A DNA stretch of 64,000 nucleotides. Origin: Isoetes taiwanensis (lineage: Eukaryota; Streptophyta; Lycopodiopsida; Isoetales; Isoetaceae). Shown piece after piece: positions 10,621 through 62,410 of the stretch. The stretch lies in contig JAJEKV010000250.1 in assembly GCA_021234155.1 (NCBI GenBank), forward strand, positions 434,001 through 498,000, given 5' to 3'. Under the pieces are notes generated by a model, which saw only the letters and a list, made by a program, of their open reading frames with translations, was not told the origin of the DNA and made no database searches. Numbering within the stretch: position 1 is the stretch's first letter; each line of letters begins with the position of its first letter. The position numbers and the translations under genes were made by a program.

Positions 10621-10627
10621 TTACGTT

Positions 10628-17282: not shown

Positions 17283-17312
17283 AACTGTGGACCAAAATTC
17301 GGGGTCAGTGTG
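17283..17312 (-). repeat. right terminal inverted repeat of the CACTA-like element
   Basis: Reads outward as CACACTGACCCCGA followed by TTTTGGTCCAC. The ATA at 17313-17315 duplicates the ATA at 4393-4395. Confidence 0.8.
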
Positions 17313-19185: not shown

Positions 19186-19225
19186 TGATCAGCCTCCAAC
19201 CGCTACAGCAGAAAAGCATGATTCT

Positions 19226-29345: not shown

Positions 29346-30153
29346 TCCAAAACAACCTGAGATGCGAACAACCTGGACCGTAGGATCGTCTATATAGAAT
29401 TTATATACAAACTCCCAAGCCATTTGGGCCATAGGATATGTCCCAAAGCCACGTGAGCCATAGGATCATGGAATAATTTAAGGGCTAAACTTAGCTATTT
29501 GGCGATTTTTTAGCAGATTTTCAAAAAAAATTGGCTAAAGTAAATGGAAAAAATTGGAAAACAAATAATAATTTTAGCTTAACTTTTTTCGGGACTGCAC
29601 CAACCCTGGAGCTCTTTAGCCAAACACTAGAAAGTAAGAGAGTGGAATTTGGTATTGTTTAGCTAAGCCATAGAAACTCTTAGAATGAATTTCGGGCTAG
29701 TTTAGCTAACATCATTCTAGTTTATATGAAATATATGATTAGTAGTTTAATTTCTAGCATTATGAATTAATTTGAGTCCTAGATTTTGATAGTTAGCATT
29801 ATTTTAGAATGTTTTCACAAAGAAAATGACTAAAATAAGTTGGAATATATTGAAAAAAAGTATAGTAATTTGGTTTAATATTTTCTGTTGGCCCTTACCA
29901 TAGAAATTTTTGGGATGATGTTTGGGTTAGTTTAGCTAAACGCTAGAAAGTATGAGAGGAAAATTGTATAGAGTTTAGCTAAACCACAGAAAGTTTTGGG
30001 ATCTAAAGTCATTCTGGCTAATAAGAAATATGCGATTAGTAATTTATTCCTGCAGGATCTCGAGCATACGGTCAGATAAGTGCGACAAAAATAAGAACAT
30101 ATATATGTTAGATAGATATATATCATTATCATTATCCTATTATTATATATATA
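29346..30153. mobile_element. array-unit tail interrupted by a 586-bp insertion
   Basis: The tail sequence (CCTGAGATGCGAACAA ... GCCATTTGGGCCATAGG ... TCGAGCATACGGTCAGATAAG ... ATATATGTTAGATAGATAT) also occurs at 58,845-59,025 and 61,575-61,745. Here it is split by 29,468-30,053, which is flanked by AGGATC duplications (29462-29467 and 30054-30059). The insert contains two related halves with TTTAGC(C/T)AAAC(A/G)CTAGAAAGTA and has no coding frame or terminal inverted repeat that I can see. Confidence 0.65.
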
Positions 30154-38200: not shown

Positions 38201-38664
38201 TAAAAGAATATAGGGGAATCTAATAGAATCTTCAAAAAAATGTTTGAGAATCTTGATGGAATCTCATAGAATCTAGTAAGATCTTCATAAAATCTAAGGG
38301 AATCTAGGAGAATCTACATAGAATTTTTCAGCTTATCTAGTGCCGGATCTGCGCCTCGGCATTGCATCTCTGCCGCAAGGCGCGGAATTTCTTGCCCAAC
38401 TCGACGAAGTGGAGGATCGATCTTATAATGCCACGTGGATCATGCATGGCCTTCGTCTATGCTATGCTTTGATCGTTAATCGGATGCTATGCTATGCTAT
38501 TTGCCTTGCTTCCATGTGGGTGGAGCTTATAATAACAGATTTTTGCTCTATCTATCCCGCTTGCATAAGCGTCGGTGAAGCTTTGTCATTACTAGTGGCT
38601 GTACGGGCATCCTTGAGAGCGTTGTGAATATCCAGGTCAAAAGATTTCTGTAGTGTTCTTTGAG

Positions 38665-38725
38665 TATAAATAGAGTTAGATTGGCCAAATTTTTCCAGTT
38701 CGCTCTCTACGCTTCCGTTTAAGGT
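38665..38725 (+). promoter_or_regulatory. TATA box and donor-like exon end, unit 2
   Basis: Identical TATAAATAG (38665-38673) and GTATGT context as in unit 1. Conservation across copies only reflects recent duplication. Confidence 0.45.
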
Positions 38726-38851
38726 ATGTCGCCTGTGAGTTTCTCTGCTTTTCTTTTGTTCTTCACAGTTGTTATCACAATATAGCTATGCTCTGTTTCT
38801 TAAGAATCCTTGGCGCGGTCCAGATCCTCGCTGCCGGATTGCAAAAAGCTT

Positions 38852-39253
38852 CTAAATGATGGCAGATTCATGCTCGAGGAGCTTTCTGGGCAGATCTCGA
38901 GGTTTAGCACGAGATGTTGAAGCTCCAACATGTTCATTAGGTCCATTCCTCCTAAATCTTGCCTTGCTAAACTTTTCAATACTATTAGGGGTTCCATCCA
39001 ACAATGCACTATGTAGTGCCTGGCTAGCTGTAGGATCCTGTAGGTGACCATTGTAACCCTTCTCATAGTTTCTTAAACACCTCATGATACTCCCAATGTG
39101 AAAATCTGGACCATCACTCCACAACTCTAAACTGAAATGGCCATAATAGGTCTGAGACTGCCCATGATTGTGCATAATCGATAAGTGTAGAGCAAAGCAT
39201 GAAACAAAAGGGAAAGATATTTTGTGGGGAATATGCAGCAAGTTGCATCGCAA
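38852..39253 (-). pseudogene. unit-2-specific coding-like segment, unidentified
   Basis: Minus-strand open frame with protein-like composition (YYGHFSLELWSDGPDFHIG, then RCLRNYEKGYNGHLQDPTAS, then RAKPRDLPRKLLEHES). The coding-like part coincides with the ~300-bp segment found only in unit 2, which argues for a real former exon. I do not recognise the family; a transposon ORF relic is possible. Confidence 0.4.
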
Positions 39254-39669
39254 AGACTATAGTAGAATGGCGCCTCCACTGGAACAAGAATTGAAGATTA
39301 GTGTTTTCTCTGTTTATTGCAGTGAATTCCCTGCTCCATATTTTTAGCCTATTCCCTTGAAATGTTTAGATGTACTGGATAAACATTTACACGATTCCCT
39401 GCAGTATTCACATACTATGAGGCAGATCTAGTTGCAGAGTGTGCAGTTTGTATTTCGGAATTGGAAGAGAGCCAAGCAGGGCGCCGATTGCTTGCTTGTG
39501 GCCGTATTTTCCACACAGGTTTCATTAGCATTCTACGTGCCCTGTCTGCAGGGTTAGTGCGGCAGAAACGCAATCTGTCCCAAATCAGAGCCTGGAACAA
39601 AATCCCCTGCCTCAAAATGCCAGCGTCTCTGGTTTTATGATAAGTATTGTGGATTCGTCTTCCGAATTA

Positions 39670-39780
39670 GGCAAGGCTGAACGGGAGGCCGGATCCCCAT
39701 CTTCTTCTTTTTCTTTGGCTGCTTTGAAGGAGCTTAAAAGATTTCTTAGTTCCGGCAGAAGGTCGCAACATCCCAATTGA
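39670..39780 (+). pseudogene. terminal-exon-like fragment, unit 2 (36 codons)
   Basis: After TTCCGAATTAG, an acceptor-like site, an open frame encodes GKAEREAGSPSSSFSLAALK and ends with FLSSGRRSQHPN and a stop at 39778-39780. The same frame is intact in unit 3 (44865-44975) but disrupted in unit 1 (~34,215-34,321). It is likely the 3' exon of the captured gene whose TATA box lies ~1 kb upstream. The protein is not identified. Confidence 0.4.
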
Positions 39781-42700
39781 ATTTTCATGCTTTTCCTCTA
39801 GCAAAAAATGGACAATTCTGGGCCAATGAATTAGAAAACCATATTAATATTTGCCCCAAAATGTTGGATGGGTGTCTATGGTCCCATATATCCAAAAATA
39901 TATACTCATCAATATCAATATGGCAACATCCCACTTCCAAGAGACTGGCGTATAATTGCATTTAATTCTATATGTTGTCAAGTGTTCTTATTATCTAAAC
40001 ATCATAGTCCTCCTTTTGCCCTAGGTTTTAATCTCAATCATTCATTCTAAACTGCTATAGTACAAATGTTGTTTCTCTCCCTGCTAGAGGAAACAGCTAA
40101 AAATCAACAGCTGAAAATCAATTGTGTTACTTATTGTATGAGTCTCCAACTTTTTGTGTTGGAACCAAGGAAGCTCGTTGATTTCTAGTGGAAACAAATT
40201 GCACCTCTCAAGGTTACCCATTAAAGTTGCAAGAGATTGCCTCGTCAAATATGTATCTCATCGAATTTTACTTTACAATAATCATTCCATCTAAATATTT
40301 CTATTTGTGGTGTAAAATGTGACTTTTGCAAAAGAGATCTTCAGAGCTTTTCTTTTTCAGAGATTGACTTAGAAATATGTCTATGGGCAATGGTAATGGA
40401 TCTATGGCTTTCTCTTAACCTTTAAATTTTGCTTTTATTATTCTTTTTAGGTTGTCAAAATCTTTCAAATTTGCAACAGTGAATGTTATCAGGTCCAAAA
40501 TGTCTTGCATTCGCAATTCTGATTTAGGGGAGCTCGCCTTCTAATTTTGATTTTTTAAGAACGTTGCTATTATCCACCGTGCTCATTAAATTATTTCATA
40601 GCTCCACTCTACAACATTACAAGCCGCCCAAAATCCACCCCCATTTGAGGGGTTGGCTACAGATCAAGTTTTTTTCTTTTACTCACTTTCGCATACACAC
40701 AAGGGGTTGGGAAAGAGTTGCGGCCGCCGCGATAAATTTCTTGTATATATAGATATTAGGGTGGTCACATGGGGGGTGTTACATATTTATATTGATCTCG
40801 GCCGTCCATTTTTTAAGGTGGCAGTATGTCATGATCGGATGTGGCATGCACAACATGTCTTGACCGTTGGATCAAAGGGAAGGATAAATCCTAGCCCTTG
40901 ATTTTTGCAAGGAAGGTGCAAAGAAGATCCCTTAAAAGTGCTTTTTGGTGCAGCCAATCTCAGCCATTGGATCAAAAAGGGGAGGTGAAATCGTGGCGAT
41001 TAAGCATTTTATTTAATTGCAATTTTTTATTAAAGGAGGTGAGGTGGCACCCTTATTTAATTAAAAAAGTAATGATGTGACACCAACATTTATGAATGGA
41101 CTTTCTAGGAAGCTTCCTTTTTATAATCATCTTCAAGGGCCCGTAACTACAGTAGAGGGGTCGGATGAAGGTGGGGCCCATGCCATTGGATTCCTCTCGT
41201 GGGGAACTTTTTTTAAAGAGTGGTGCCTTGGCATCATTCCATTGTAGTAAGAGTCAATGTGATCGAATACCGAGAATCTTCTTGGAATCATGGAATCTTA
41301 CAGAATCTATCGTAATTTAGGAGAATCTCCAAGAATCTTCATGGGATCTTAGAGAATTTAGAGGAATCTCAATGGAATATTAGGAAATCTATGGGAATCA
41401 CAAGAGAATCCTTGAGAATCTAAAGAATCCAAGGGAATCTTCATAAAATATTTTAGAATCAAGGGAATGTTGGTGGAATCTTGGAGAATCTCGAGAATCT
41501 TAAGTAGGAACTAGAGAATCTAGGGAATCTACATAGTATATTAGGGAATCTTGGGGAATTTGGAGGAATCTTGAGATAATAGGAATCTGAGGAATCTTCA
41601 TAGAATCTTGGAGAAATTATGGGAATCTTGATGGAATCTTGGAGAATCTAAGGGAATTTTGATAGAACCTTGGAGAACCTAAGGGAATCTTTGTAGAATC
41701 CAATGGAATCTATAGGAATCTCAGGAGAATCTCTGGGAACCTTCATAAAATCTTTGACAATTTAGGGGAATCTTGATGGAACCTTGGAGAATCTAAAAGA
41801 ATCTATATAGGATCTTGAATAATCTAAGAGAATTGACATAGAATATTTAGTAATCTAAGGGAATCTTGGAAGAATCTTTGAGGGCCTAGGCCTATCTAAA
41901 GGAATCTGCATAGAATCTTTCAGAATTTAAGGGAATCTTGATGGAATCTTGGAGAATGTGAGGAATCTACATGGAATTTTTTGGGAATCTTGGAAGAATC
42001 TTTGGAGATCCACAGGAATCTAAGTGGATCTTAATAAAATCTTTGAGACTCCAGGGGAATCTTGATGGAATCTTGGAGAATCTAGGGTAATCTTTATAGA
42101 ATCTGAGGGAATCTAGGGGTAACCTAGATAGAACCTTGACAAACCTGGAGGGATCTTGGAATATTATTTGGGAATCTAGAAGAATCTCAAGAGAATCTTA
42201 GGGAATCTTAGAAGAATATTTGAAAATCTAGGAGAATCTAAAGGAATGTCTATAGAATCTTATAGAATCTCGAGGATTATCAAGGGATCTTGTGGAATAT
42301 AAGGAAAAATTGATGGAATCTCAAAGTATCTAGGGGAATCTTTACATTACTTCGGGGAATCCAAGAGAGTCTTTATAGAATCTTCGTTGGATGGCTCTAC
42401 ATTTGGCTTTTGGTCGAATTTGTACAATCCCTCATAGTACAACCACTTGTATGTATAAAATTATTCTATGTGTGCCTTGAAAACGATGTACCCATGGTGT
42501 ATATGACATGTTAAAAATATGTAACACACTTCTTTACCGTCGGATTGGGGGCATTGATTGAGTGGCGCGACGTGAGCCATTGGATTATGGATGAGTCATG
42601 CATGGGGCATGCATGGCCATGCATAAGGGCTGCAACACATCCCTGGACCATCAGATCAAAAGGGGAGGCGAAATCATGGCCCTTGATTTTTATAAGAAAG

Positions 42701-44109
42701 GTGCAAGGAAGCTTCCTTAAAAGTGGATTTGGTGCAAGCAATTTTAACCGTTAGATCAAAAGGGGGAGGAGAAATCCTAGCCATTCATTTTCTTATTTAA
42801 TTAGATTTTTTTATATTCAAGGAGGTGAGGTGGCACTCTTATTTATTGAAAAGATAGTGAGGTGGCAACTTATTAATTATGAAGCTTTCTTAGAAGCTTC
42901 CTTTTTTGCATCGCCTTCAAATGACTTTATCTTGCGATGAAGGTCTCAGATCAAAGTGGGACCCACGCCATTGGATTCCTGTCATTAAATGCTTTCTAAT
43001 GAGTAGTTGTTTGGCATCATTCCGTGCAATGTTGGATAATTTAGGGGAATATTCATAGAATCTAAGAGAATCTGAGAGAATCTATGTAGAAACTTGGGGA
43101 ATCTAGCGGAATCTTGGGATAATCTTTGAAAAACAAGGGAATCTCAATAGAATCTTAAGGAATCTATGAGAATCTCAAAAGAATCTAGGGGAATCTAAGA
43201 AAATTTTCAAAAAAGGTTTAAGAATCGAGGGAAATCTTGATGGAATTTTAGAGATCTAAGGGGATCTTCATAGAATTTAAGAGAATCTAGGAGAACCTAC
43301 ATAGAATCTTGGGGAATCTAAACGAATCTACATAGAATCTTGGGAAATCTTTATAGAACCTTAAGAATCTAGGGGATCTATGTGGAATCTTAGTGAATTG
43401 CGGGGAGATTCCAAGGGATCTAGGGAATCTTTGATAGTAGGTGTGTTCTACAGGGGAATCTTCATAGAATCTTAGGGAATCTAGAAGAATCTACATGGAA
43501 TCTTGGAGAATCTAGAGGAATCTTAGGATAATATTTGGGAATCTAAGGGAATCTCAAGAGAATAGTTAAGAATCTAAAGGAATCTAGAGGAATCTTGGGA
43601 TAACCTTCGGAATCAAGGAAATATCAAGAGAATCTTAAGGAATCTATGGGATTTAAAAGAATATAGGGGAATCTAATAGAATCTTCAAAAAAATGTTTGA
43701 GAATCTTGATGGAATCTCATAGAATCTAGTAAGATCTTCATAAAATCTAAGGGAATCTAGGAGAATCTACATAGAATTTTTCAGCTCATCTAGTGCCGGA
43801 TCTGCGCCTCGGCATTGCATCTCTGCTGCAAGGCGCGGAATTTCTTGCCCTGACGAAGTGGAGGATCGTCTTATAATGCCGGCGGATCATGCATGGCCTT
43901 CGTCTATGCTATGCTTTGATCGTTAATCAGATGCTATGCTATGCTATTTGCCTTGCTTCCATGTGGGTGGAGCTTATAATATGTAGATTTGCTCTATCTA
44001 TCCCGCTTGCATAAACGTCGTGAAGCTTTGTCATTACTAGTGGTCAGACGGGCATCCTTGAGGCGTTGTGAATATCGAGGTCAAAAAGATTTCTGTAGTG
44101 TTCTTTGAG

Positions 44110-44170
44110 TATAAATAGAGTTAGATTGGCCAAATTTTTCCAGTTCGCTCTCTACGCTTCCGTTTAAGGT
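44110..44170 (+). promoter_or_regulatory. TATA box and donor-like exon end, unit 3
   Basis: TATAAATAG at 44110-44118 in the same context as units 1 and 2. Unit 4 has no copy. Confidence 0.45.
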
Positions 44171-44864
44171 ATGTCGCCTGTGAGTTTCTCTGCTTTTCTT
44201 TTGTTCTTCACAGTTGTTATCACAATATAGCTATGCTCTGTTTCTTAAGAATCCTTGGCGGGGTCGGATCCATTGCTTGGGATTGCAAAAAGCTTCTAAA
44301 TGATGGCATGATTCATGCTCTAAGTAGCTCGATTTGTGCATAATCGATAAGTGTCCTAAGCAAAGCATGAAACAAAAAGGAAAAGATATTTTGTGGGAAT
44401 ATACGCTGAAATGGCCAAGTTGCATAATCGATAAGTGTAAAGATGACAAAAGACTATAGTAGAATGGCCTCCCCTTTGGAACAAGAATTGAAGATTAGTG
44501 TTTTCTCGTTTATTGCAAATTGAATTCCCGCTCCATATTTTTAGCCTATTCCCTTGAAATGTTTAGATGTACTGGATAAACATTTACACGATTCCCTGCA
44601 GTATTCACATACTATGAGGCAGATCTAGTTGCAGAGTGTGCAGTTTGTATTTCGGAATTGGAAGAGAGCCAAGCAGGGCGCCGATTGCTTGCTTGTGGCC
44701 GTATTTTCCACACAGGTTTCATTAGCATTCTACGTGCCCCATGCGGGGTTAGTCGCGGCGAAAAATAATCTGTCCCAAATCAGAGCCTGGAACAAAATCC
44801 CCTGCCTCAAAATGCCAGCGTCTCTGGTTTTATGATAAGTATTGTGGATTCGTCTTCCGAATTA

Positions 44865-44975
44865 GGCAAGGCTGAACGGGAGGCCGGATCCCCATCTTCT
44901 TCTTTTTCTTTGGCTGCTTTGAAGGAGCTTAAAAGATTTCTTAGTTCCGGCAGAAGGTCGCAACATCCCAATTGA
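44865..44975 (+). pseudogene. terminal-exon-like fragment, unit 3
   Basis: Copy of the unit-2 fragment at 39670-39780 with the same 36-codon frame and stop. Confidence 0.4.
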
Positions 44976-45942
44976 ATTTTCATGCTTTTCCTCTAGCAAA
45001 AAATGGACAATTCTGGGCCAATGAATTAGAAAACCATATTAATATTTGCCCCAAAATGTTGGATGGGTGTCTATGGTCCCATATATCCAAAAATATATAC
45101 TCATCAATATCAATATGGCAACATCCCACTTCCAAGAGATCAAGCGATAATTGCATTCAATTCTATATGTTGTCAAGTGTTCTTATTATCTAAACATCAT
45201 AGTCCTCCTTTTGCCCTAGGTTTTAATCTCAATCATTCATTCTAAACTGCTATAGTACAAATGTTGTTTCTCTCCCTGCTAGAGGAAACAGCTAAAAATC
45301 AACAGCTGAAAATCAATTGTGTTACTTATTGTATGAGTCTCCAACTTTTTGTGTTGGAACCAAGGAAGCTCGTTGATTTCTAGTGGAAACAAATTGCACC
45401 TCTCAAGGTTACCCATTAAAGTTGCAAGAGATTGCCTCGTCAAATATGTATCTCATCGAATTTTACTTTACAATAATCATTCCATCTAAATATTTCTATT
45501 TGTGGTGTAAAATGTGACTTTTGCAAAAAGAGATCTTGAGCTTTTTCTTTTTCAGAGATTGACTTAGAAATATGTCTATGGGCAATGGTAATGGATCTAT
45601 GGCTTTCTCTTAACCTTTAAATTTTGCTTTTATTATTCTTTTTAGGTTGTCAAAATCTTTCAAATTTGCAACAGTGAATGTTATCAGGTCCAAAATGTCT
45701 TGCATTCCCAATTCTGATTTAGGGGTGCTCGCCTTCTAATTTTGATTTTTTAAGAACGTTGCTATTATCCACCGTGCTCACTAAATTATTTCATAGCTCC
45801 ACTCTACAACATTACAAGCGCCCAAAAATCCACCCTCTTGTAGGGGTTGGCTACCGTCAAGTTTTTTCTTTTTACTCACTTTCGTACACACAAGGGGTTG
45901 GGAAAGAGTTGCGGCCGCCGCGATAAATTTCTTGTATATATA

Positions 45943-48900
45943 GATATTAGGGTGGTCACATGGGGGGTGTTACATATTTATATTGATCTCGGCCGTCCAT
46001 TTTTTAAGGTGGCAGTATGTCATGATCTGGATGTGGCATGCACAACATGTCTTGACCGTTGGATCAAAAGGGAAGGATAAATCCTAGCCCTTGATTTTTG
46101 CAAGGAAGGTGCAAAGAAGATCCCTTAAAAGTGCTTTTTGGTGCAGCCAATCTCAGCCATTGGATCAAAAAGGGGAGGTGAAATCGTGGCGATTAAGTAT
46201 TTTATTTAATTGCAATTTTTTATTAAAGGAGGTGAGGTGGCACCCTTATTTAATTAAAAAAGTAATGATGTGACACCAACATTTATGAATGGACTTTCTA
46301 GGAAGCTTCCTTTTTATAATCATCTTCAAGGGCCCGTAACTTACAGTAGAGGGGTCGGATGAAGGTGGGGCCCATGCCATTGGATTCCTCTCGTCGGGAA
46401 CTTTTTAAAGAGTGGTGCCTTGGCATCATTCCATTGTAGTAAGAGTCAATGTGATCGAATACTGAGAATCTTCTTGGAATCATGGAATCTTACAGAATCT
46501 ATCGTAATTTAGGAGAATCTCCAAGAATCTTCATGGGATCTTAGAGAATTTAGAGGAATCTCAATGGAATATTAGGAAATCTATGGGAATCACAAGAGAA
46601 TCCTTGAGAATCTAAAGAATCCAAGGGAATCTTCATAAAATATTTTAGAATCAAGGGGAATGTTGGTGGAATCTTGGAGAATCTCGAGAATCTTCGTAGG
46701 AACTAGAGAATCTAGGGGAATCTACATAGTATATTAGGGAATCTTGGGGAATTTGGAGGAATCTTGAGATAATAGGAATCTGAGGAATCTTCATAGAATC
46801 TTGGAGAAATTATGGGAATCTTGATGGAATCTTGGAGAATCTAAGGGAATTTTGATAGAACCTTGGAGAACCTAAGGGAATCTTTGTAGAATCCAATGGA
46901 ATCTATAGGAATCTCAGGAGAATCTCTGGGAACCTTCATAAAATCTTTGACAATTTAGGGGAATCTTGATGGAACCTTGGAGAATCTAAAAGAATCTATA
47001 TAGGATCTTGAATAATCTAAGAGAATTGACATAGAATATTTAGTAATCTAAGGGAATCTTGGAAGAATCTTTGAGGGCCTAGGCCTATCTAAAGGAATCT
47101 GCATAGAATCTTTCAGAATTTAAGGGAATCTTGATGGAATCTTGGAGAATCGCGAGGAATCTACATGGAATTTTTGGGAATCTTGGAAGAATCTTTGGAG
47201 ATCCACAGGAATCTAAGTGGATCTTAATAAAATCTTTGAGACTCCAGGGGAATCTTGATGGAATCTTGGAGAATCTAGGGTAATCTTTATAGAATCTGAG
47301 GGAATCTAGGGGTAACCTAGATAGAACCTTGACAAACCTGGAGGGATCTTGGAATATTATTTGGGAATCTAGAAGAATCTCAAGAGAATCTTAGGGAATC
47401 TTAGAAGAATATTTGAAAATCTAGGAGAATCTAAAGGAATGTCTATAGAATCTTATAGAATCTCGAGGATTATCAAAGGGATCTTGTGGAATATAAGGAA
47501 AAATTGATGGAATCTCAAAGTATCTAGGGGAATCTTTACATTACTTGGGGAATCCAAGAGAGTCTTTATAGAATCTTAGTTGGATGGCTCTACATTTGGC
47601 TTTTTGGTCGAATTTGTACAATCCCTCATAGTACAACCACTTGTATGTATAAAATTATTCTATGTGTGCCTTGAAAACGATGTACCCATGGTGTATATGA
47701 CATGTTAAAAATATGTAACACACTTCTTTCTTAGGTCGGATTGGGGGCATTGATTGAGTGGTGGCGCGTGAGCCATTGGATTATGGATGAGTCATGCATG
47801 GGGCATGCATGGCCATGCATAAGAACAACACATCCCTGGACCATCGGATCAAAGGGGAGGCGAAATCATGGCCCTTGATTTTTATAAGAAAGGTGCAAGG
47901 AAGCTTCATTAAAAGTGGATTTGGTGCAAGCAATTTTAACCGTTAGATCAAAAGGGGGAGGAGAAATCCTAGCCATTCATTTTCTTATTTAATTAGATTT
48001 TTTTATATTCAAGGAGGTGAGGTGGCACTCTTATTTATTGAAAAGATAGTGAGGTGGCAACTTATTAATTATGAAGCTTTCTTAGAAGCTTCCTTTTTTG
48101 CATCGCCTTCAAATGACTTTATCTTGCGATGAAGGTCTCAGATCAAAGTGGGACCCACGCCATTGGATTCCTGTCATTAAATGCTTTCTAATGAGTAGTG
48201 GTTTGGCATCATTCCGTGCAATGTTGGATAATTTAGGGGAATATTCATAGAATCTAAGAGAATCTGAGAGAATCTATGTAGAAACTTGGGGAATCTAGCG
48301 GAATCTTGGGATAATCTTTGAAAAACAAGGGAATCTCAATAGAATCTTAAGGAATCTATGAGAATCTCAAAAGAATCTAGGGGAATCTAAGAAAATCTTC
48401 AAAAAAGGTTTAAGAATCGAGGGAAATCTTGATGGAATTTTAGAGATCTAAGGGGATCTTCATAGAATTTAAGAGAATCTAGGAGAACCTACATAGAATC
48501 TTGGGGAATCTAAACGAATCTACATAGAATCTTGGGAAATCTTTATAGAACCTTAAGAATCTAGGGGATCTATGTGGAATCTTAGTGAATTGTGGGAGAT
48601 TCCAAGGGATCTAGGGGAATCTTTGATAGTAGGTGTGTTCTACAGGGGAATCTTCATAGAATCTTAGGGAATCTAGAAGAATCTACATGGAATCTTGGAG
48701 AATCTAGAGGAATCTTAGGATAATATTTGGGAATCTAAGGGAATCTCAAGAGAATAGTTAAGAATCTAAAGGAATCTAGAGGAATCTTGGGATAACCTTC
48801 GGAATCAAGGAAATATCAAGAGAATCTTAAGGAATCTATGGGATTTAAAAGAATATAGGGGAATCTAATAGAATCTTCAAAAAAATGTTTGAGAATCTTG

Positions 48901-49590
48901 ATGGAATCTCATAGAATCTAGTAAGATCTTCATAAAATCTAAGGGAATCTAGGAGAATCTACATAGAATCTTGGGAAATCTAAAGAAATCTTCAGATAAT
49001 CTTTGAAAATCTAGGGGAATCTTTGTAGAACCTTAAGAATCTAGGGGATGTTTATGGAATTTTAGGGAATTTATGGGGAATCCAAGGGCATCTAGGGGAA
49101 TCTTTGACACTGGGTGTGTTCTAAAGGGGAATCTTCATGGAATCTAAAGAAATCTAGAAGAATCTACATGGAATCTTGAGGAATCTTAGGATAATCTTTG
49201 GGAATCTAGGGGAATCTCAAGAGAATCTTTAAGAATCTAAAGGAATCTAAGCTAATCTTCATAAAATCTTTGAGTATCTAGAGAATCTTGGTTGAATCTT
49301 AGAGAATCTCTATAGAATCTTCATCGCACGACTTTAAATTTGATTTGTAGTTGAATTTGTACAATTCCTCGAGGAATAATCTGCGGATCTTGGGAAATAT
49401 AAGCGAACATTGATGGAATCTCATAGAATCTAGGGAATTCTTCCTAGAGTCTTGGAGAATCTAAGAGAATCTTTATAGGAACTTCGTTGGATGGCACTGT
49501 GTTTGGCTTCTAGTCGAATTTGTATAGTCCCTCATAGTACAATAACTTGTATATATAACATTATACAGGCCATGTTAGAGATATGACCTA
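45943..49590 (+). repeat. macro-tandem unit 4, lacking the 2.1-kb segment
   Basis: Follows the other units to ~48,970. There, instead of switching into the promoter segment, the GAATCT array simply continues to ~49,480 and ends in another GTCGAATTTGTATAGTCCC block. This suggests that the uninterrupted array is ancestral and the 2.1-kb segment of units 1-3 is an insertion. Confidence 0.88.
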
Positions 49591-49622
49591 GTCCTAATAC
49601 AGGCCATGTTATAGATGAAGTA

Positions 49623-51248
49623 ATGAAGGCATGGGAACAAACAGTTCAATATATGGAGGAAAAGTTGGGGAAATTCTGTACAAACAGAATTGAAAAAACA
49701 AAGGCATTCATTAAATGGCAAATTAAACAATGGGTGCTAGAAAGCAGCAGAAATAAGAAAAAAAGGATCAGAGTCCCAGAGAAAGTATGCACATCAGAAT
49801 GCATAAACGAAAAAATGTGGTTACAACAACATTTATACATATCAGGAGCTGATAAAGCTGAGAATACACCAGTATTCATATGTAAGAATTATATAAGAAA
49901 ATTAGCTCTTAACAGGGTTAATAGTAGCGACTTCTCTATGTGTATTGATGAGGACGGTTTTCCATGTTCCCCATTGGCAATCAAGGATAAATGTGTACAA
50001 CACATGAAAGATATGGCTATGGTAAAGCCTAATAGGCTATTGGGACTACCGTATTTGATGGGAACTTATAAGGCACATAAGAGCAAGTTTAGATGGCTAA
50101 CAAATGCTGCAAATTGTATATTCACAGATTTGGCAGTCCTAATGACAGAAATTATTCAAACCTTAGTGCCTGCATTCAAGGAAATGTGCTATCAATTGGA
50201 CTCCAAAATTAAAAAATTTATGGGGGTCAAAACTAGATCAGTTTGGTGGATTAATTCGACTATAGATCTAGCTGTCAACCTCCCACAACATATCAGATAT
50301 ACATGGGTGGCAGATATAGCGAGATGCTATGAATCAATACCCTTGTCGGGTAATGATGGAATTACCACAATATGTGAAGTTATCTTCTCAAAAGCGTATG
50401 AAATGAATAACCCGCTTAGGTTGTATGTGCATAAAGTTGCAAATAGATACAAATGTTCTTGGAGAAAAGATGCATATAATTCAAACTCATGGGTTGAGAT
50501 CAAATTGCAAGAGCTTATTGGATTGAATAATTATCTGCTCACTAATTGCTATGTACAAGTTGGGGATAGGGTTTGGAAGCAGATAAAAGGGATCCCTATG
50601 GGATTTTCCTGTTCACCATTATGGTGTAACATATATCTGATGTTCTATGAATTCAACTTTATCAAAAGATTGGCGAGATTGGGAAAAGTGGAATATCTAG
50701 CCTTGTTTGAGTATACATTTAAATATATGGATGACCTTGGCACATTCAACAATCCAATAATGGATGCATTTGTTGACCCAAGGCAATCAAGAAATACAGA
50801 TAATCCCTTTTGGATTTATCCGTTAGAATTCCTCGACATAAAGAAGGAGGATACACAACATATTTTGACCCAATTTGCTACTGAATTACCGAGGTGTAAC
50901 TTCCTCAATATGCATATCCAGATTATAAACCAAGAACATGGGTCTTATATTACGACAAAGTTTGATAAGAGGAGATGGCTTCCATTCCAATTTGTACAGT
51001 ACATACAATTAGCGTCAAATAGGAAAATCAGTCAATGCTATAATCTGATAATAGCTCAAGTAATTAGTCTACTTTATTTATGTAATTGCCCAGATATGTT
51101 TTTGGAAGAGATAAAGAGGACCATGATGGTATTTAAGAATAACGGATTCTCTATTGACAGGCTTATAAGCACCATAAAAAAAGCTATTCATAATGCGAAA
51201 GCCCAGGGTCACAATTGGAAAAGCAAGACGGATACAGAGATATCATAG
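49623..51248 (+). CDS. ORF2 reverse transcriptase, copy A (N-terminally truncated)
   Basis: 541-codon frame, the least damaged RT in the element. RT fingers contain LPYLMGTYKAHKSKFRWLTN. Motif A is VADIARCYESIPL with the catalytic Asp near 50,313. Motif B is GIPMGFSCSP at 50589-50618. Motif C is YMDD at 50724-50735. Motif E-like CNFLNMHIQI follows. The Lys-His-Lys before the fingers Arg and the SIPL after motif A match Penelope-like RTs rather than LINE, copia or gypsy. A one-base deletion in the CCCC run near 51,205 (compare copy B) alters the last residues. The N-terminal ~100 codons seen in copy B are absent, so the chosen ATG is simply the first one available. Confidence 0.7.
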   Translation: MKAWEQTVQYMEEKLGKFCTNRIEKTKAFIKWQIKQWVLESSRNKKKRIRVPEKVCTSECINEKMWLQQHLYISGADKAENTPVFICKNYIRKLALNRVNSSDFSMCIDEDGFPCSPLAIKDKCVQHMKDMAMVKPNRLLGLPYLMGTYKAHKSKFRWLTNAANCIFTDLAVLMTEIIQTLVPAFKEMCYQLDSKIKKFMGVKTRSVWWINSTIDLAVNLPQHIRYTWVADIARCYESIPLSGNDGITTICEVIFSKAYEMNNPLRLYVHKVANRYKCSWRKDAYNSNSWVEIKLQELIGLNNYLLTNCYVQVGDRVWKQIKGIPMGFSCSPLWCNIYLMFYEFNFIKRLARLGKVEYLALFEYTFKYMDDLGTFNNPIMDAFVDPRQSRNTDNPFWIYPLEFLDIKKEDTQHILTQFATELPRCNFLNMHIQIINQEHGSYITTKFDKRRWLPFQFVQYIQLASNRKISQCYNLIIAQVISLLYLCNCPDMFLEEIKRTMMVFKNNGFSIDRLISTIKKAIHNAKAQGHNWKSKTDTEIS

Positions 51249-51985
51249 TACGTGGTATTTTAGAACTATAGGAAGCTGTATGGGAATGTCATGAAAAAAT
51301 AAAAAAGGCTGCATGGCGCCTACATGGAATGATGGAATAGCAGAACAATGAAAAAAAGGAAGAAAAAGGGTTTGTCTAAAATAACATCTGTGAACAGATG
51401 TCAAAAAATCGGCCCTATCTGCCTCGGCCGACATGCTCTGGTATGACTTTAAGATAAGTCGAATCATCCAAGTTAAGGGCCGGACATGGATCCGGAGACT
51501 GATTAGGATGCCGACATGATGAATAATGGCAAGAGCAAGCGCTGCCGCCTTGGCAGAAGATTGAATTTGCCCTGTACTTCCGGAGCTGGCAGATAATCGT
51601 CTCGGCATCTGCATAACTTGAGATGTGCAATACAGGTTAGCATTAAAAAAGGTTTTTCTGGTTAATAGAGAACATTTATTCTGTTCATAGATTCCTTTAA
51701 CTGTAGCAAATTCTAAATGCATATTATGCAGAAACGGATCCATCAAATGATCATGTGGACTTTGCCATAAAAATTAGTCTTTAAAGATCTGTGACAGTCC
51801 AGAGGTAAGCATAGTATTTAAGGCTTCTGGATTTTTTAAATCAGAAAGACTTATAATCTAGGGAATATGACATGCCTTCTCTGAAACTAAGAGAGGACAT
51901 TGATTATTTGCTTCCTAAAAGTACTTAAAGGCTCTTGTAATATTTGCTTTCAAAATTGTGACAGAATAAAAGGGGATAAGCGAAG
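51249..51985 (+). other. non-coding 5' portion of the pseudo-LTR tail
   Basis: Between the end of ORF2 and the candidate ORF1 exon. Conserved in both copies with small GC-rich differences near 51,420-51,600. No ribozyme core or other feature was identified. Confidence 0.4.
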
Positions 51986-52069
51986 ATGAGTGACATGCAG
52001 GAAGACATAAAGGATTCCAGTTTTATGGAGGTGGAGGAAGAGCCTGAGCATTTCCATGATGACACCCAG
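51986..52069 (+). CDS. candidate exon 1 of ORF1 inside the upstream pseudo-LTR
   Basis: ATG at 51986 opens 28 codons of acidic sequence (MSDMQEDIKDSSFMEVEEEP and so on), ending exactly at CCCAG with a GTCAGC donor at 52070. The phase-0 junction joins the frame that starts after TTGTATAG at 52867. The 797-nt intron would run from the pseudo-LTR into the internal region. The exon is inferred from splice sites and frame only. A competing first exon, driven by the TATA box at 52432 and ending at CAG/GTGAGC (52508), would be untranslated. Confidence 0.45.
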
Positions 52070-52431
52070 GTCAGCAAATATAAGAAATGAGATATGATAT
52101 GAAAAAGGGAGAGGCAAGTTCCAATATATGGCAGATTGCAATGATACTATGCATCTATATCTACCAAGCTAAGAACGTCCCATTTTCATGGTCTTAGTTC
52201 TTTAAATAGCTGGTAAAATATCTAGATGAAGGAACGAATATGCTTCTACTGGAATATTATATAGATGTTTTCTTATTATTTGTTCATTATTCGTTTGTGA
52301 TTATTAAATAGGGGGATGGGGTAAAGTAATAGGGAAATGTGAACAGTATGGAAGGTAGGATTTACTGCATGATGATATAAGAATGCCTTAAATTTTCTTG
52401 TTATTCATGACACCGATAACAAGGGGGGTTG

Positions 52432-52508
52432 TATAAAAAGCACTGACACCTGTCTTTCCATACCATGCATCTGTACTAACACATGTTTTTGGTTTTGGAT
52501 GGTGGCAG
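52432..52508 (+). promoter_or_regulatory. internal TATA box and strong splice donor of the Penelope-like element
   Basis: TATAAAAAG at 52432-52440 is followed by a possible short leader exon ending GGTGGCAG before GTGAGC, a near-consensus donor. The same arrangement occurs in the downstream repeat (TATA at 57819-57827). It fits a promoter in the pseudo-LTR driving ORF1 with an intron in the 5' UTR. Confidence 0.5.
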
Positions 52509-52866
52509 GTGAGCTTTTCCCCAAGAAGATAGAAATTTAAGCGCAAATCGAGTATTCATCATGTGCAGTAACTAATTGTTGTATGGATTATAAGAAAGTA
52601 CATTAATATTTCGGATCTATTACTCTAGCAGATAAATATGAGATGACAAAGGTAAAATCTTCTTACAGCTAATAGTAATATAGATCCCTAATATAGGGAG
52701 GTTGCTAAAAAAATAGCATATATATACATATAAATTTGACCAGATAATGGTTACCACCTTATGTCCTATGATTAACAAAGTCATAGACATAGTCTATATC
52801 TATTAGTTGTATACATAAACTTTGGACGTCATATAAAGTTATCTGACTAGGTGGTTTCTTGTATAG

Positions 52867-54533
52867 ATTCCTGAACAAGAAGAAGGAGCAATAGAATGGC
52901 TTCAGGAACTCAAAGATATCGGGTATGGAGAAAATCAATGGATCCCAATTCCCGTTGTTCAAAACATCATGGTGTTGATGGCGGATGCCGCAGGATTACA
53001 CGAGTACATTTTGAATAAGGAAAATGCACTAGGTGAGGATGATTTTTCAATTCTTAGTTCCCTTGATGCATCCCATTGGTTTAAGCTCTTCTATACGTAT
53101 AGAATTGGGGGTAATGTTCTTCAACAATTGAAGACATTCGAATCCCAAATATCGGATATGCTGGAATCAGAGCTGAAATTGATAAATGTATGAGGGTGTT
53201 AGAACAGTTTAAAGAATTGAAATTGGTAAATGGAGAAAAATACCCTATGCAATATTTTAGAGATGATGAAGAAACTGAAAGTGCAGCGCACATTACACCA
53301 GATGGTATGAACCCTAAGCTCAAGGGAATTAAACTGGATGAGGAGGCACAGGCCATATCAAGGGATTTTGCAGCTGAGCAGATGAGTAAATTGAATAATC
53401 ATTATCTTTTTTTCAAAAGATACCCTACCCCTGTAGTGCCTAGAAGATTTGTGGAGCAATGGGCAGCAGAAAAAAATAATAGAACATGGAAGCTCTATTC
53501 TTTCAATCTATTGGCCCCAATCCCAGTTGAAGCATATTATTATCTTGGTGGGATTGAAAATGAAAATTCTGAACCTTCAACGTGGATGGATAAATATGTG
53601 AATTTTGCAAGAAAAGGAACCAACATTCTGGAAAAAGAGACACCTATACTGAAATATAACCTAGCTATGTTTGACTCAACAAAGTGTCCAGAAGAATCTA
53701 TGTTGGCCTTGGCAAAAAAAGATATGCCCACCACTGGTAAGACAAGAGGTAAGGATTATGAGACTAGATGGCCGAACTGGAAAAGGCCGTACTGCAGATG
53801 CCCACACCCTCTGAAAACATGCAATTATATTGGAGTACTATGGTTTGATCATGTGCTGTGGTACATGATGAATAATATTGAAAAGTTCTTCAAAGGAGAC
53901 TCTGTCATATCTAGGTGGAGCCAATTCATAAACTGGACCAGCAATCCTGCAATTGAAAGTGTTATCCAACAGTGCCTAGTATTTCATTTTATTAGAAAAT
54001 TAATGATGGAAGGGTTGCTGGAGTATGTCACTGCCCCAGAAGCCAGGATGTTTGGTCAGAGCAACAATGAAAATGGGTTAAGATACATTGAAAGGCTAAT
54101 TAAGCCACCTAGTTTTTCAGAAGTCAATACGCCAGTAATGCAAAAGAGAAATAGGGATTTTGCGGATAATTTATCTTCTCCTAATAAAAGAAGCAGAGGA
54201 AGGGGAAGAGGTGCTTATAGAGGGAGATCTAGAAACATGGGATGGGGACAGGGAGAAAGAGGTAATTTTTCACAACCTCACATGGGTGGCCAGGCTGGAA
54301 GGGGTATTGGAAGTTCTGGAAGGGGACGTGGAAGAGGCGATAATAATGCGGTTGGAAGAGGTGCAACCAATTCTAGAGGTGGCAGACCTCCATCTGGGCA
54401 TTATGGTAGAGGAAGAAATTGGTCTGCCCCTGCTTCGTCTGATAGTGTACAGATGGTGAGAAGCACACAATTCCAGCAGCAAAATGAGTCACCTTTAAGA
54501 CCAAGAAACCTGAATTATCGTTGGAATAATTAA
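52867..54533 (+). CDS. ORF1 of the Penelope-like element: RGG-rich nucleic-acid-binding-like protein
   Basis: Two overlapping frames. The first, 52867-53193, encodes IPEQEEGAIEWLQELKDIGY onward and stops at TGA 53191-53193. The second, 53190-54533 (447 codons), starts at an ATG overlapping that stop (ATGA). The second frame has a charged N-terminal half, a PYCRCPHPLKTC Cys/His cluster near residue 206, and a C-terminal third densely packed with RGRGRG, RGG and GRGR motifs typical of RNA-binding or condensing proteins. The overlap may be real coupling or a single-base frameshift in one original ORF. No capsid or esterase domain was recognised. Its probable role is RNA packaging or chaperoning for the RT encoded just downstream; that is inference. 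Confidence 0.6.
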
Positions 54534-54611
54534 TGAATTGTTTTGAATGTTACTGTTATGTTGAATAGGGCTTGTTTTAAGGACTGAAATTTAGCAAAAA
54601 CTCTGCAGGAT

Positions 54612-56645
54612 ATGCAAGATGTACTGAAATATCTTGTGTTAGACAAAGGACGTTGGAAAGTTATGAAAGAATTTCCCAAAAAATTCATTTATATACACTT
54701 ATTGTATGTAAATAGAATTATGGAATTAGTTAACTTGAAAAAGCTATTTGGCATATGTTGTCTACAAGGGTTAAAAATAGAAGATCCGGATATCCTCATC
54801 AAATCCACAAGGGTTGGAAGTATCTTCCTAGCATCAAATCCTCATGGTATAAACCCAAGGACACCTTTTGCAACTTCTCATGTTATGATAATTTGAACTG
54901 TCAGTGTACAAAAATAGCATGGTTTAGGCCTTTCTTAAAGAAAGGAGAAGATGAAACGGAACATGTCATTTCCCTTTCTATAGACATATGTCTATATGCT
55001 AGGGATAATATAAAGTATGGATTAAATCATATTCATCTTCAAAGTCCTAATACAGGCCATGTTATAGATGAAGTAATGAAGGCATGGGAACAAACAGTTC
55101 AATATATGGAGGAAAAGTTGGGGAAATTCTGTACAAACAGAATTGAAAAAACAAAGGCATTCATTAAATGGCAAATTAAACAATGGGTGCTAGAAAGCAG
55201 CAGAAATAAGAAAAAAAGGATCAGAGTCCCAGAGAAAGTATGCACATCAGAATGCATAAACGAAAAAATGTGATTACAACAACATTTATACATATCAGGA
55301 GCTGATAAAGCTGAGAATACACCAGTATTCATATGTAAGAATTATATAAGAAAATTAGCTCTTAACAGGGTTAATAGTAGCGACTTCTCTATGTGTATTG
55401 ATCAAGGATAAATGTGTACAACACATGAAAGATATGGCTATGGTAAAGCCTAATAGGCTATTGGGACTACCGTATTTGATGGGAACTTATAAGGCACATA
55501 AGAGCAAGTTTAGATGGCTAACAAATGCTGCAAATTGTATATTCACAGATTTGGCAGTCCTAATGACAGAAATTATTCAAACCTTAGTGCCTGCATTCAA
55601 GGAAATGTGCTATCAATTGGACTCCAAAATTAAAAAATTTATGGGGGTCAAAACTAGATCATTTTGGTGGATTAATTCGACTATAGATCTAGCTGTCAAC
55701 CTCCCACAACATATCAGATATACATGGGTGGCAGATATAGCGAGATGCTATGAATCAATACCCTTGTCGGGTAATGATGGAATTACCACAATATGTGAAG
55801 TTATCTTCTCAAAAGCGTATGAAATGAATAACCCGCTTAGGTTGTATGTGCATAAAGTTGCAAATAGATACAAATGTTCTTGGAGAAAAGATGCATATAA
55901 TTCAAACTCATGGGTTGAGATCAAATTGCAAGAGCTTATTGGATTGAATAATTATCTGCTCACTAATTGCTATGTACAAGTTGGGGATAGGGTTTGGAAG
56001 CAGATAAAAGGGATCCCTATGGGATTTTCCTGTTCACCATTATGGTGTAACATATATCTGATGTTCTATGAATTCAACTTTATCAAAAGATTGGCGAGAT
56101 TGGGAAAAGTGGAATATCTAGCCTTGTTTGAGTATACATTTAGATATATGGATGACCTTGGCACATTCAACAATCCAATAATGGATGCATTTGTTGACCC
56201 AAGGCAATCAAGAAATACAGATAATCCCTTTTGGATTTATCCGTTAGAATTCCTCGACATAAAGAAGGAGGATACACAACATATTTTGACCCAATTTGCT
56301 ACTGAATTACCGAGGTGTAACTTCCTCAATATGCATATCCAGATTATAAACCAAGAACATGGGTCTTATATTACGACAAAGTTTGATAAGAGGAGATGGC
56401 TTCCATTCCAATTTGTACAGTACATACAATTAGCGTCAAATAGGAAAATCAGTCAATGCTATAATCTGATAATATTGGAAGAGATAAAGAGGACCATGAT
56501 GGTATTTAAGAATAACGGATTCTCTATTGACAGGCTTATAAGCACCATAAAAAAAGCTATTCATAATGCGAAAGCCCCAGGGTCACAATTGGAAAAGCAA
56601 GACGGATACAGAGATATCATAGTACGTGGTATTTTAGAACTATAG
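54612..56645 (+). pseudogene. ORF2 of copy B with the full N-terminus, disrupted
   Basis: Starts after a 78-nt gap from ORF1. The first frame from ATG 54612 shifts near 54,740-54,770 into the frame carrying HKGWKYLPSIKSSWYKPKD and the Cys-rich CNFSCYDNLNCQC segment. It runs into the RT region shared with copy A. Lesions are TGA at 55271-55273, a 32-bp deletion near 55,402 and a 16-codon deletion near 56,474. The RT core (GIPMG, YMDD at 56145-56156) is intact downstream. The C-terminus here, ending RDIIVRGILEL, is probably the ancestral one. Confidence 0.7.
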
Positions 56646-58131
56646 GAAGCTGTATGGGAATGTCATGAAAAAATAAAAAAGGCTGCATGGCGCCTACATG
56701 GAATGATGGAATAGCATAACAATGAAAAAAAGGAAGAAAAAGGGTTTGTCTAAAATAACATCTGTGAACAGATGTCAAAAAATCGGCCCTATCTGCCTCG
56801 GGCCGACATGCTCGGTATGACTTTAAGATAAGTCGAATCATCAAGTTAAGGGCGGACATGGATCAGGAGGCCCGATTAGGATGCCGACATGATGAATAAT
56901 GGCAAGAGCAAGCATTGCCGCCTTTGGCGAAGATTGAATTTGCCACAATACTTCGAGTGGCGAGATAATCGTCTCCCAACATCGCATAACTTGAGATGTG
57001 CAATACAGGTTAGCATTAAAAAAGGTTTTTCTGGTTAATAGAGAACATTTGTTCTGCTGTTGAACCATAGTGATTTCATAGATTCCTTTAACTGTAGCAA
57101 ATTCTAAATGCATATTATGCAGAAACCATGTGGACTTTGCCATAAAAATTAGTCTTTAAAGATCTGTGACAGTCCAGAGGTAAGCATAGTATTTAAGGCT
57201 TCTGGAATTTTTAAATCAGAAAGGCTTATAATCTAGGGAATATGACATGCCTTCTCTGAAACTACTAATGGAATATAAGAGAGGACATTGATTATTTTGC
57301 TTCCTAAAAGTACTTAAAGGCTCTTGTAATATTTGCTTTCAAAATTGTGACAGAATAAAAGGGGATAAGCGAAGATGAGTGACATGCAGGAAGACATAAA
57401 GGATTCCAGTTTTATGGAGGTGGAGGAAGAGCCTGAGCATTTCCATGACGACACCCAGGTCAGCAAATATAAGAAATGAGATATGATATGAAAAAGGGAG
57501 AGGCAAGTTCCAATATATGGCAGATTGAAATGATACTATGCATCTATATCTACCAAGCTAAGAACGTCCCATTTTCATGGTCTTAGTTCTTTAAATAGCT
57601 GGTAAAATATCTAGATGAAGGAACAAGTATGCTTCTACTGGAATATTATATAGATGTTTTCTTATTATTTGTTCATTATTCGTTTGTGATTATTAAATAG
57701 GGGGATGGGGTAAAGTAATAGGGAAATGTGAACAGTATGGAAGGTAGGATTTACTGCATGATGATATAAGAATGCCTTAAATTTTCTTGTTATTCATGAC
57801 ACCGATAACAAGGGGTTGTATAAAAAGCACTGACACCTGTCTTCCCATACCATGCATCTGTACTAACACATGTTTTTGGTTTTGGATGGTGGCAGGTGAG
57901 CTTTTCCCACTTGAATACAAGAAGATAGAAATTTAAGCGCAAATCGAGTATTCATCATGTGCAGTAACTAATTGTTGTATGGATTATAAGAAAGTACATT
58001 AATATTTCGGATCTATTACTCTAGCAGATAAATATGAGATGACAAAGGTAAAATCTTCTTACAGCTAATAGTAATATAGATCCCTAATATAGGGAGGTTG
58101 CTAAAAAAATAGCATATATATACACATATAT
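55044..58131 (+). repeat. downstream pseudo-LTR / copy B 3' part
   Basis: Nearly identical to 49591-52733 apart from a 32-bp deletion near 55,402, a 48-bp in-frame deletion near 56,474, a TGG-to-TGA change at 55271-55273 and small indels in the non-coding part. Confidence 0.85.
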
Positions 58132-61228: not shown

Positions 61229-61742
61229 GAGATTCCTTTGATTCTATTAAGATTCCCTCAGATATTATGAGATTCTCTCAAATTCTATGAAGATTCCCAT
61301 GGATTCCTTCAGAATTTATGAGATTCCGTCAAACTTTATGAAGATTCCCTTAGATTTTATGGGATTCCATAGATTCCCTTGGATTTTATGAGATTCTCTT
61401 GGATTCTATGAAGACTCTGCTAGATTCCCAAGATTTTAGGAAGATTCCCCTACATTCCCTTAATTTAATGAGATTCCCTTAGATTCTATGAAGATTCCCC
61501 TCATCTAGAAGATTCTAGAACCTTCTAGACATTTCTAGAACTTCTTAGAACAATCTAGAACAATATTCCAAAACAACCTGAGATGCGAACAATCTGGACC
61601 ATAGGATCGTCTATATAGAATTTATATAGAAATTCCCAAGCCATTTGGGCCATAGGATATGTCCCAAAGCCACGTGAGCCGTAGGATCTCGAACATACGA
61701 TCAGATAAGCGCGACAAACATAAGAACATATATATGTTAGAT

Positions 61743-61744
<2 letters not shown>

Positions 61745-61804
<60 letters not shown>
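61745..61804. repeat. (TA)n microsatellite
   Basis: About 30 TA units at the junction between the composite-repeat tail and the inverted array-unit flank. Confidence 0.95.
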
Positions 61805-61805
<1 letters not shown>

Positions 61806-62410
61806 AGTGGTTGTACTATGAGGGACTGTACAAATTCGACTGGAGGCAAAATGCAGTGCCATCCAACAAAGATTCTATTAAGATTCTCCTAGATTCTCTA
61901 GACTCTAGAAAGATTTCCCTAGATTCTATGAGATTCCATCAATGTTCGCTTATATTCCCCAAGATCCATTGATGATTCTTGGAGGGATTGTACAAATTCG
62001 ACTAGAAGTCAAACTTAAAGTCATGCAATGAAGATTCTATAGAGATTCTCCAAAATCCCATCAAGATTCTCTAGATACTCAAAGATTTTACGAAGATTCC
62101 CTAAGATTCCTTATATTCTCTTGATATTCCTAGAGATTCCTTAAGATTCTCTTTATATTTCCTTGATTTCCAAAGGTTATCCCAAGATTCCTTTAGATTC
62201 TCTTAGATTCCTTTAGATTCCTAAAGATTCTCTTGAGATTTCCCTAGATTCCTCTAGACTCCCTAAGATTCCATGTAGATTCTTCTAGATTCTCTTAGAT
62301 TCTATGAAGATTCCCCCTATAGAACACACTTCATTGGCCAAAGATTCCCCTAAAATCCTTGGATTCTCCATCGATTCCCTAAGATTCCACTAAGATCCCC
62401 CTAGATTCTT
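61805..62410 (-). repeat. inverted copy of macro-tandem spacer and array 1
   Basis: Reverse complement of the spacer edge seen at ~31,850-31,770 (GTTGTACTATGAGGGA, GTACAAATTCGACT), followed by AGATTC-orientation array. A second GTACAAATTCGACTAG block lies near 61,990. Confidence 0.75.

Follow-up and report, generated by a model that had tools for sequence, protein, structure and literature searches.

A probable endonuclease-less, two-ORF Penelope-like family associated with (TA)n microsatellites in the quillwort Isoetes taiwanensis

How does a retroelement spread through chromosomes when it encodes no recognisable endonuclease? This question is raised by a locus of the quillwort Isoetes taiwanensis. 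In the window analysed here, a stretch of 64,000 nucleotides (assembly GCA_021234155.1, contig JAJEKV010000250.1, positions 434,001 to 498,000 of the forward strand), positions 49591-58131 contain a reverse transcriptase (RT), a further open reading frame (ORF1) and long direct repeats. An initial annotation, made from the sequence letters, took this element for a Penelope-like element (PLE) with pseudo-long terminal repeats (pseudo-LTRs). We searched the genome for relatives and read their ends. In our reading, to which we assign a probability of about 0.72, the element belongs to a Penelope-like lineage with two ORFs and no endonuclease, which primes its reverse transcription at (TA)n microsatellites.

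Anatomy and family of the element

The two near-identical repeats of about 3.1 kb reported at first are present: 49591-52735 and 55044-58131 differ by 23 substitutions over 3039 aligned bases (99.2% identity) and by 22 insertions or deletions (indels), a similarity far beyond chance. They result from a 5'-truncated copy followed by a full unit in the same orientation, the tail of the first being joined to the head of the second, which is the partial head-to-tail tandem that the name pseudo-LTR implies. The features are as follows.

49546..49564 (+): left flank, CTTG and then a short TA tract; the insertion site
49591..52735 (+): left copy, its 5' end lost inside ORF2; the upstream pseudo-LTR, from the repeat comparison
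49587..51248 (+): RT frame of the left copy, open, 553 amino acids (aa), with DKA at residue 89, KAHK at 162, motif A D243, GIPMG at 335, YMDD ending in D383, and FLNMHI
51249..52735 (+): 3' untranslated region (UTR) in the left copy, some 1.49 kb long, present again after ORF2 of the right copy
52700..52726 (+): 3'-end motif of the left copy, at the tail-to-head junction with the 5' start of the next unit
52736..58131 (+): right copy, a full-length unit of about 5.4 kb; its exact 5' base is ambiguous within a TA tract
52749..52770 (+): conserved 5'-start motif
52867..54533 (+): ORF1 of the right copy, conserved in the family (about 550 aa in relatives), with a central CRCPHPxxxC region and an RGG-rich tail; frameshift around 53115-53193
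54588..56645 (+): ORF2 of the right copy, a Cys-rich N-terminal domain and then the RT; broken
54899..54907 (+): C-x-C motif, here CQC, in the N-terminal domain of ORF2
58096..58122 (+): 3'-end motif of the right copy; TA-rich flank lies beyond it
61719..61840 (-): unoccupied related site, resembling the left flank of the element, with a 59-base (TA)n (61745-61803) and then CTAACATATATATGTTC, the right flank of the insertion L102

The RT motifs named by the initial annotation (GIPMG, YMDD, K-x-HK and FLNMHI) all lie in the frame 49587-51248. This open RT frame belongs to the truncated left copy; the full-length right copy is broken in both ORFs. Its ORF1 is split into an RGG-rich frame (53115-54533), as had been described, and an N-terminal part in another frame (52867-53193); in the relative L052 both pieces form a single frame of 550 aa. 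In the ORF2 of the right copy the frame changes somewhere in 54734-54896 and is interrupted by an in-frame stop near 55271, and two segments present in the left copy, of 32 and 48 bases, are missing. Since the assembly was built from nanopore reads with Illumina polishing (PMC8566536, in excerpt), some of the small indels may be assembly errors. A 20-base stretch inside the truncated copy (49597-49616) is nearly doubled just outside it (49563-49582, 95% identity), possibly by slippage at the 5' junction.

The genome searched has 1110 contigs and 1,658,258,908 bases in all. With the RT as query, a six-frame search that scored 78 of 3704 candidates gave 85 matches that merge into at least 76 copies, with 35-100% identity per match among the matches listed. 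The corresponding ORF1 search (90 of 3135 candidates scored) gave 96 matches, merged into at least 75 copies. Of the 76 listed RT copies, 34 have ORF1 on their own strand no more than 2.5 kb upstream, and none has it on the opposite strand; the ORF1 first described as an addition to the element is thus kept across the family. Same-strand arrays hold 21 of the 76. ORF1 is an open frame of 520-551 aa in four of the six loci fetched (L052, L053, L054 and L056), the other two being that of the window and L055, where stops interrupt it. Open ORF2 frames of 714-754 aa were found in L039, L016, L040, L041, L042, L043, L044, L046 and L048. Ratios of nonsynonymous to synonymous substitution (dN/dS) were calculated with a simple NG86 script for 13 pairs, of which five were saturated in dS and eight usable. 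Four ORF2 pairs have ratios of 0.13-0.21 and a fifth, near-identical pair has 0.56; the three ORF1 pairs lie at 0.13-0.23. Both ORFs therefore look to be under purifying selection, and on this evidence the window copy belongs to a large family that selection still maintains and is not an isolated curiosity.

The ORF2 proteins share one order of elements: the N-terminal domain, a GLNxI-like motif, DK(A/S), K-x-HK, RW(L/I)TNA, motif A, GIPMG and (M/I)DDL. Exactly one C-x-C motif occurs, at a fixed place, in all ten members that have the N-terminal domain, in keeping with the Cys-rich ORF2 N-terminus noticed at the start. The ORF1 proteins combine CRCPHPxxxC with an RGG-rich tail, and ORF1 is probably an RNA-binding protein. 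In Pfam, the window RT has a sub-threshold RVT_1 match (E 0.0015), and RVT_1 was matched by 10 of 11 family members (best 4.2e-5). The CRISPR-associated RT model of PADLOC matched all 11 members (best 1.5e-6), with one weak match each to the UG21 and UG26 RT models, and a PHROGs RT family matched five of 11 (best 0.0023); we take these matches to reflect RT in general, with no bearing on placement. ORF1 had no Pfam match and matches in the PDB at E 0.1 or worse; ORF2 had no PDB match, and NCBIfam gave nothing useful. Relatives of ORF2 were absent from the viral and prokaryotic contigs searched, and relatives of ORF1 from the viral contigs searched.

No GIY-YIG domain was found by Pfam in 11 ORF2 proteins (ten with the N-terminus) and five ORF1 proteins, nor any AP or REL endonuclease domain in the same proteins; integrase, protease and RNase H were likewise not found in the ORF1 and ORF2 proteins. 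A genome search for PF01541 (GIY-YIG), in which 150 of 263 candidates were scored, returned at least 121 hits in short frames of up to 200 aa. Among the matches listed, the shortest distance is 96 kb to any of the 76 copies and 36 kb to the 61 places of the deeper lineage described next. The initial impression that no GIY-YIG is visible at this locus therefore extends to the family.

L048, the most divergent member of our alignment (35% identical), served as the query of a deeper search. With 61 of 4853 first-look candidates scored, 62 matches were obtained in at least 61 places, two of them among the 76 copies, so that at least 59 further places belong to the L048 lineage. Frames of at least 680 aa are free of stops in 28 of the 61 listed places, or in 29 of the 62 matches, since one place contributes two. 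Among the matches listed, relatives are 53-76% identical to L048 (for example C1064:1166738-1168813 and L110). In L110, the one L048-lineage element examined for this purpose, the upstream 1.5 kb includes a 377-aa frame that hhalign identifies as a homologue of ORF1 (27% identity over 174 columns; probability 97.3, E 2e-11), which suggests that the pairing of ORF1 with ORF2 probably goes back to the ancestor of the group. The RGG tail is not obvious in this single deep ORF1. The L048 branch may rank with the larger groups of retrotransposons in this genome.

Ends, target and arrays

A strict pattern for the 3' end gave 43 exact hits across the genome, and its reversed control gave none. All 43 ends were read: 16 are tail-to-head junctions and 27 enter other DNA. 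The conserved 3' end runs into UAUAUAUACAUAUA. Numbering bases from the A of GCATAT, we called a flank TA-alternating if TA or AT made up at least seven of the 11 steps across bases 15-26. By this definition TA alternation is present in 22 of the 27 flanks, in 0.7% of 12-mers drawn at random from the window and in none of the 16 junctions (junction maximum, 5). L039 and L066, both among the 27, have the same flank; as it is identical, they probably represent one inverted duplication and not two events. Two opposite copies at C1019:18334771 (+) and C1019:18356080 (-) have a common 3' flank, and because this flank is identical, host DNA was probably duplicated there as an inverted pair.

The window also contains an unoccupied site related to the insertion site. 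The reverse complement of 61719-61840 resembles the left flank of the element and carries no insertion; its (TA)n runs uninterrupted for 59 bases. L102 (C1019:815351) is an insertion beside the right-hand sequence of this same empty site. Because the related empty site carries (TA)n and L102 has inserted beside its right-hand sequence, we regard (TA)n as the target, at least at the window site.

A pattern for the 5' start has 29 hits (control, none). Of these starts, 24 follow a 3' end (the 16 strict junctions and eight more recognised by eye), three do not (L040, L112 and L116), and the pair in C1041 was left out. L040 has a full-length 5' end with a (TA)n tract before it. The 3' UTR of L040 ends without the terminal hairpins and passes directly into a TA-rich stretch, possibly through internal initiation or a deletion. 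At the 3' end, two stem-loops are possible in four of five subfamily sequences, and the second one in all five.

The copies are not concentrated at scaffold ends. On scaffolds of at least 4 Mb and known length, 38 of the 43 listed copies lie more than 1 Mb from the end, which equals the uniform expectation (88%); this count leaves out 33 of the 76 copies, and the end of a scaffold is not that of a chromosome. An Rfam scan of the window element and seven loci found no hammerhead ribozyme.

We propose the following mechanism. The ORF2 protein would bind the 3' end of its own RNA, and the UA-rich end of that RNA would pair with the 3' end of frayed or broken (TA)n DNA. The paired (TA)n end would then prime reverse transcription without an element-encoded endonuclease. 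An early stop would leave a 5'-truncated copy, and pseudo-LTRs would arise from an RNA spanning two units or from a further insertion into the TA tail of an existing copy. The 3' UTR of an upstream unit may act as the promoter of the next.

The arrays have monomers of 5.4-5.7 kb, and C208 carries four successive junctions spaced 5.47-5.51 kb apart. The length of the TA tract at the junction is constant within each of the three subfamilies that have more than one junction (15 junctions; the 16th, in L053, stands alone), which favours a tandem or circular template. Identities between units are less uniform. Two units in C1028 are 98.2% identical, the two outer units in C1055 96.6% and those of the window 99.2%, whereas the units in C963 match each other no more closely than they match a copy in C1044 (96.5% and 97.4%, over different lengths). 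The C1055 array is of mixed age, with a middle unit 43% identical and carrying 19 stops between outer units at 63-65%, and C941 is mixed too; this favours stepwise growth. As far as identities within and between arrays can tell, the answer on their origin appears mixed. Circular RNA with rolling-circle copying, or unequal crossing-over, in place of tandem transcripts and self-targeting, would account for the constant junction lengths, for the run of four junctions in C208, which is long for one transcript, and for units of one array being mutual closest relatives (C1028, outer C1055, window). Against this stand the lack of a hammerhead in the eight sources scanned, the mixture of decayed and fresh units in C1055 and C941, which is unlike one event, and the C963 units. 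We consider such an origin possible, at clearly less than even odds.

Placement of the reverse transcriptase and competing explanations

As one line of evidence for the affiliation of the family, its profile was compared by hhalign with RT groups from the same genome. Telomerase reverse transcriptase (TERT) was closest (P 5.6e-4; 42 columns, probability 29.8%), followed by long interspersed nuclear elements (LINEs; P 0.25) and gypsy elements (P 0.31). A tree was built from 90 columns in four blocks, with the family, the genome's own TERT, three LINEs and six gypsy elements. The best of three topologies joins the family with TERT by a log-likelihood difference of 1.7, which is not significant (AU 0.81 versus 0.20 and 0.20). 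The LINEs (support 88) and gypsy elements (100) form groups of their own apart from the family, and this evidence speaks against an RT nested inside either of the groups tested. The phylogeny proposed by the initial annotation thus agrees with it as far as LINE and gypsy are concerned, while the TERT neighbour is favoured without significance. TERT differs in having a telomerase RNA-binding domain (PF12009), which no family member matched in Pfam. Motifs 2 and A are 74-75 residues apart in the family, 109 in TERT, 68 in LINEs and 39 in gypsy, a spacing that gives no clear signal of an insertion-in-fingers domain. Membership in the PLEs is thus argued from anatomy, at the probability given at the outset for the whole PLE reading.

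A number of observations weigh against an endonuclease-less PLE priming on (TA)n. The RT placement is weak (the 90 columns and the log-likelihood difference of 1.7 come from a tree without PLE sequences). Five of the 27 flanks have fewer than seven TA steps, and the (TA)n could partly be a slippage tail. The 5' flanks of the truncated copies L039 and L041 are not TA-rich, as would be expected if the far side had been trimmed. The 3' hairpins fold no better than shuffled sequences in four of five cases (z -0.3 to -0.8; -2.0 for the window's). No ORF1 was detected near 42 of the 76 listed RT copies, through truncation or divergence, and several usable dS values exceed 0.8, so that those dN/dS ratios are rough. 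Telomeric dimers (TTTAGGG or TTAGGG) number zero in 44 loci totalling 209,885 bases, which departs from the published habit of PLEs lacking the endonuclease, EN(-) PLEs. Finally, ORF1 or the Cys-rich domain may contain an unrecognised nuclease.

One alternative makes the family a relative of the PLEs with an N-terminal GIY-YIG (Chlamys and Naiad) that has lost the endonuclease and gained ORF1. Chlamys and Naiad are reportedly marked (by Craig et al. in 2021) by a C-x-C domain, a bias towards microsatellites and the lack of a hammerhead motif. By this description the family would be similar, with its C-x-C ahead of the RT in ten of ten members, its microsatellite targets and no hammerhead found. 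It differs in having a separate ORF1 and no detected GIY-YIG, the nearest match listed being 36 kb or more from every listed copy, and the spacing of motifs 2 and A does not clearly indicate an insertion in the fingers. We regard this relationship as a doubtful but serious possibility.

Alternatively, the family could be an ordinary telomere-associated EN(-) PLE, as in Selaginella, dispersed by later rearrangement. Its architecture is of the same class, two ORFs without endonuclease in 4-6 kb (excerpts of PMC6431247), and its host is in the plant division of Selaginella, which is itself on record for such elements (excerpts of PMC9033089 and PMC12477314). The position of 38 of 43 copies more than 1 Mb from the ends of large scaffolds, as expected for uniform placement, the lack of telomeric dimers, and 3' flanks that are mostly (TA)n weigh against this explanation, which we hold to be somewhat unlikely. 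A fuller version of the (TA)n-priming account holds that an ancient PLE lineage, which lacks an endonuclease and keeps ORF1 throughout the family, left the telomere, that (TA)n breaks or frayed ends prime it throughout the chromosomes, and that its own TA tail serves as a landing site on which arrays grow, so that it would be the interstitial counterpart of the telomere-primed PLEs. We put this forward tentatively, at a little under even odds.

A LINE with an unusual ORF1 would share the two ORFs and the 5' truncation, and is very improbable given the tail-to-head arrays; it was rejected for its lack of an endonuclease domain in Pfam, the P of 0.25 against the genome's three LINEs and their separate group. 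A true LTR retrotransposon with 3.1-kb LTRs, suggested by the two near-identical direct repeats, can be set aside almost entirely: the RT coding sequence lies within the repeats, the proteins lack integrase, protease and RNase H in Pfam, the RT does not group with gypsy, and the window repeats do not have the TG...CA ends that the initial annotation named, with integrase, as marks of true LTRs.

Surroundings, known elements and significance

Tandem units of about 5.2 kb, 97-98% identical and composed of AGAATCT-type minisatellites, occupy 30140-48969, and inverted relatives flank the element at 27.5-29.5 and 58.3-64 kb. A large inverted duplication (8193-10667 versus 11194-13672, 85.6% over 2.5 kb) has the 19-bp repeats GTTGGAGCCTAGGTGGCAT at both outer ends. 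The window further contains an open frame encoding a complete domain of glycosyl hydrolase family 17 (1980-3014, minus strand, E 5e-82), a copia gag fragment (3970-4533) and a decayed Copia element with Pol_BBD, rve and RVT_2 pieces (17256-20970, plus strand). Elsewhere, near an element copy in L041, a 455-aa frame resembling a PIF/Harbinger transposase was recognised by eye (6845-8210, reverse-strand count).

The suggestion that the combination of features may be undescribed does not hold in its original form. Excerpts of the literature describe two-ORF, endonuclease-less PLEs of 4-6 kb as an established form (PMC6431247) and list EN(-) PLEs for Selaginella, Pinus and Picea (PMC9033089). Those of Selaginella are called telomere-associated (PMC12477314, in excerpt), and EN(-) PLEs in general are reported, in the available part of PMC3846280, to be largely confined to chromosome ends with telomeric-repeat caps. 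Compared by description, the quillwort family resembles the EN(-) PLEs Athena, Coprina and those of Selaginella and conifers in lacking GIY-YIG, in its two ORFs, its 4-6 kb and its 5' truncation, and in occurring, like those of Selaginella, in a lycophyte; it differs from their telomeric location in being spread over scaffolds, mostly at (TA)n and without telomeric dimers. Canonical PLEs with an endonuclease (Penelope/Poseidon, PAc of Anolis) share the tandem or partial-tandem copies with pseudo-LTRs and the AT-rich target, PLEs being described in excerpts of PMC11167929 as forming such tandems and homing to AT-rich DNA. They have a single ORF with a C-terminal GIY-YIG and, in the pseudo-LTR, a hammerhead motif; neither GIY-YIG nor hammerhead was found here. 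As far as literature searches show, what is new relative to the open-licence literature is a plant endonuclease-less family that is interstitial, (TA)n-targeted and large, with a deeply conserved ORF1 and no link to telomeres found. A full-text search for Isoetes and Penelope returned no paper titled on the subject, which is weak evidence of absence as most of the subscription literature is not covered.

Endonuclease-less PLEs are described, in excerpts of PMC12632851, as the closest known eukaryotic relatives of telomerase, and the way in which they choose their sites bears on the origin of that enzyme. If our reading is true, priming at ordinary chromosomal (TA)n would separate the lack of an endonuclease from confinement to telomeres, and the pairing of primer and template that it predicts is testable. 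For the lycophytes, the family points to a large and little-noted group of retrotransposons.

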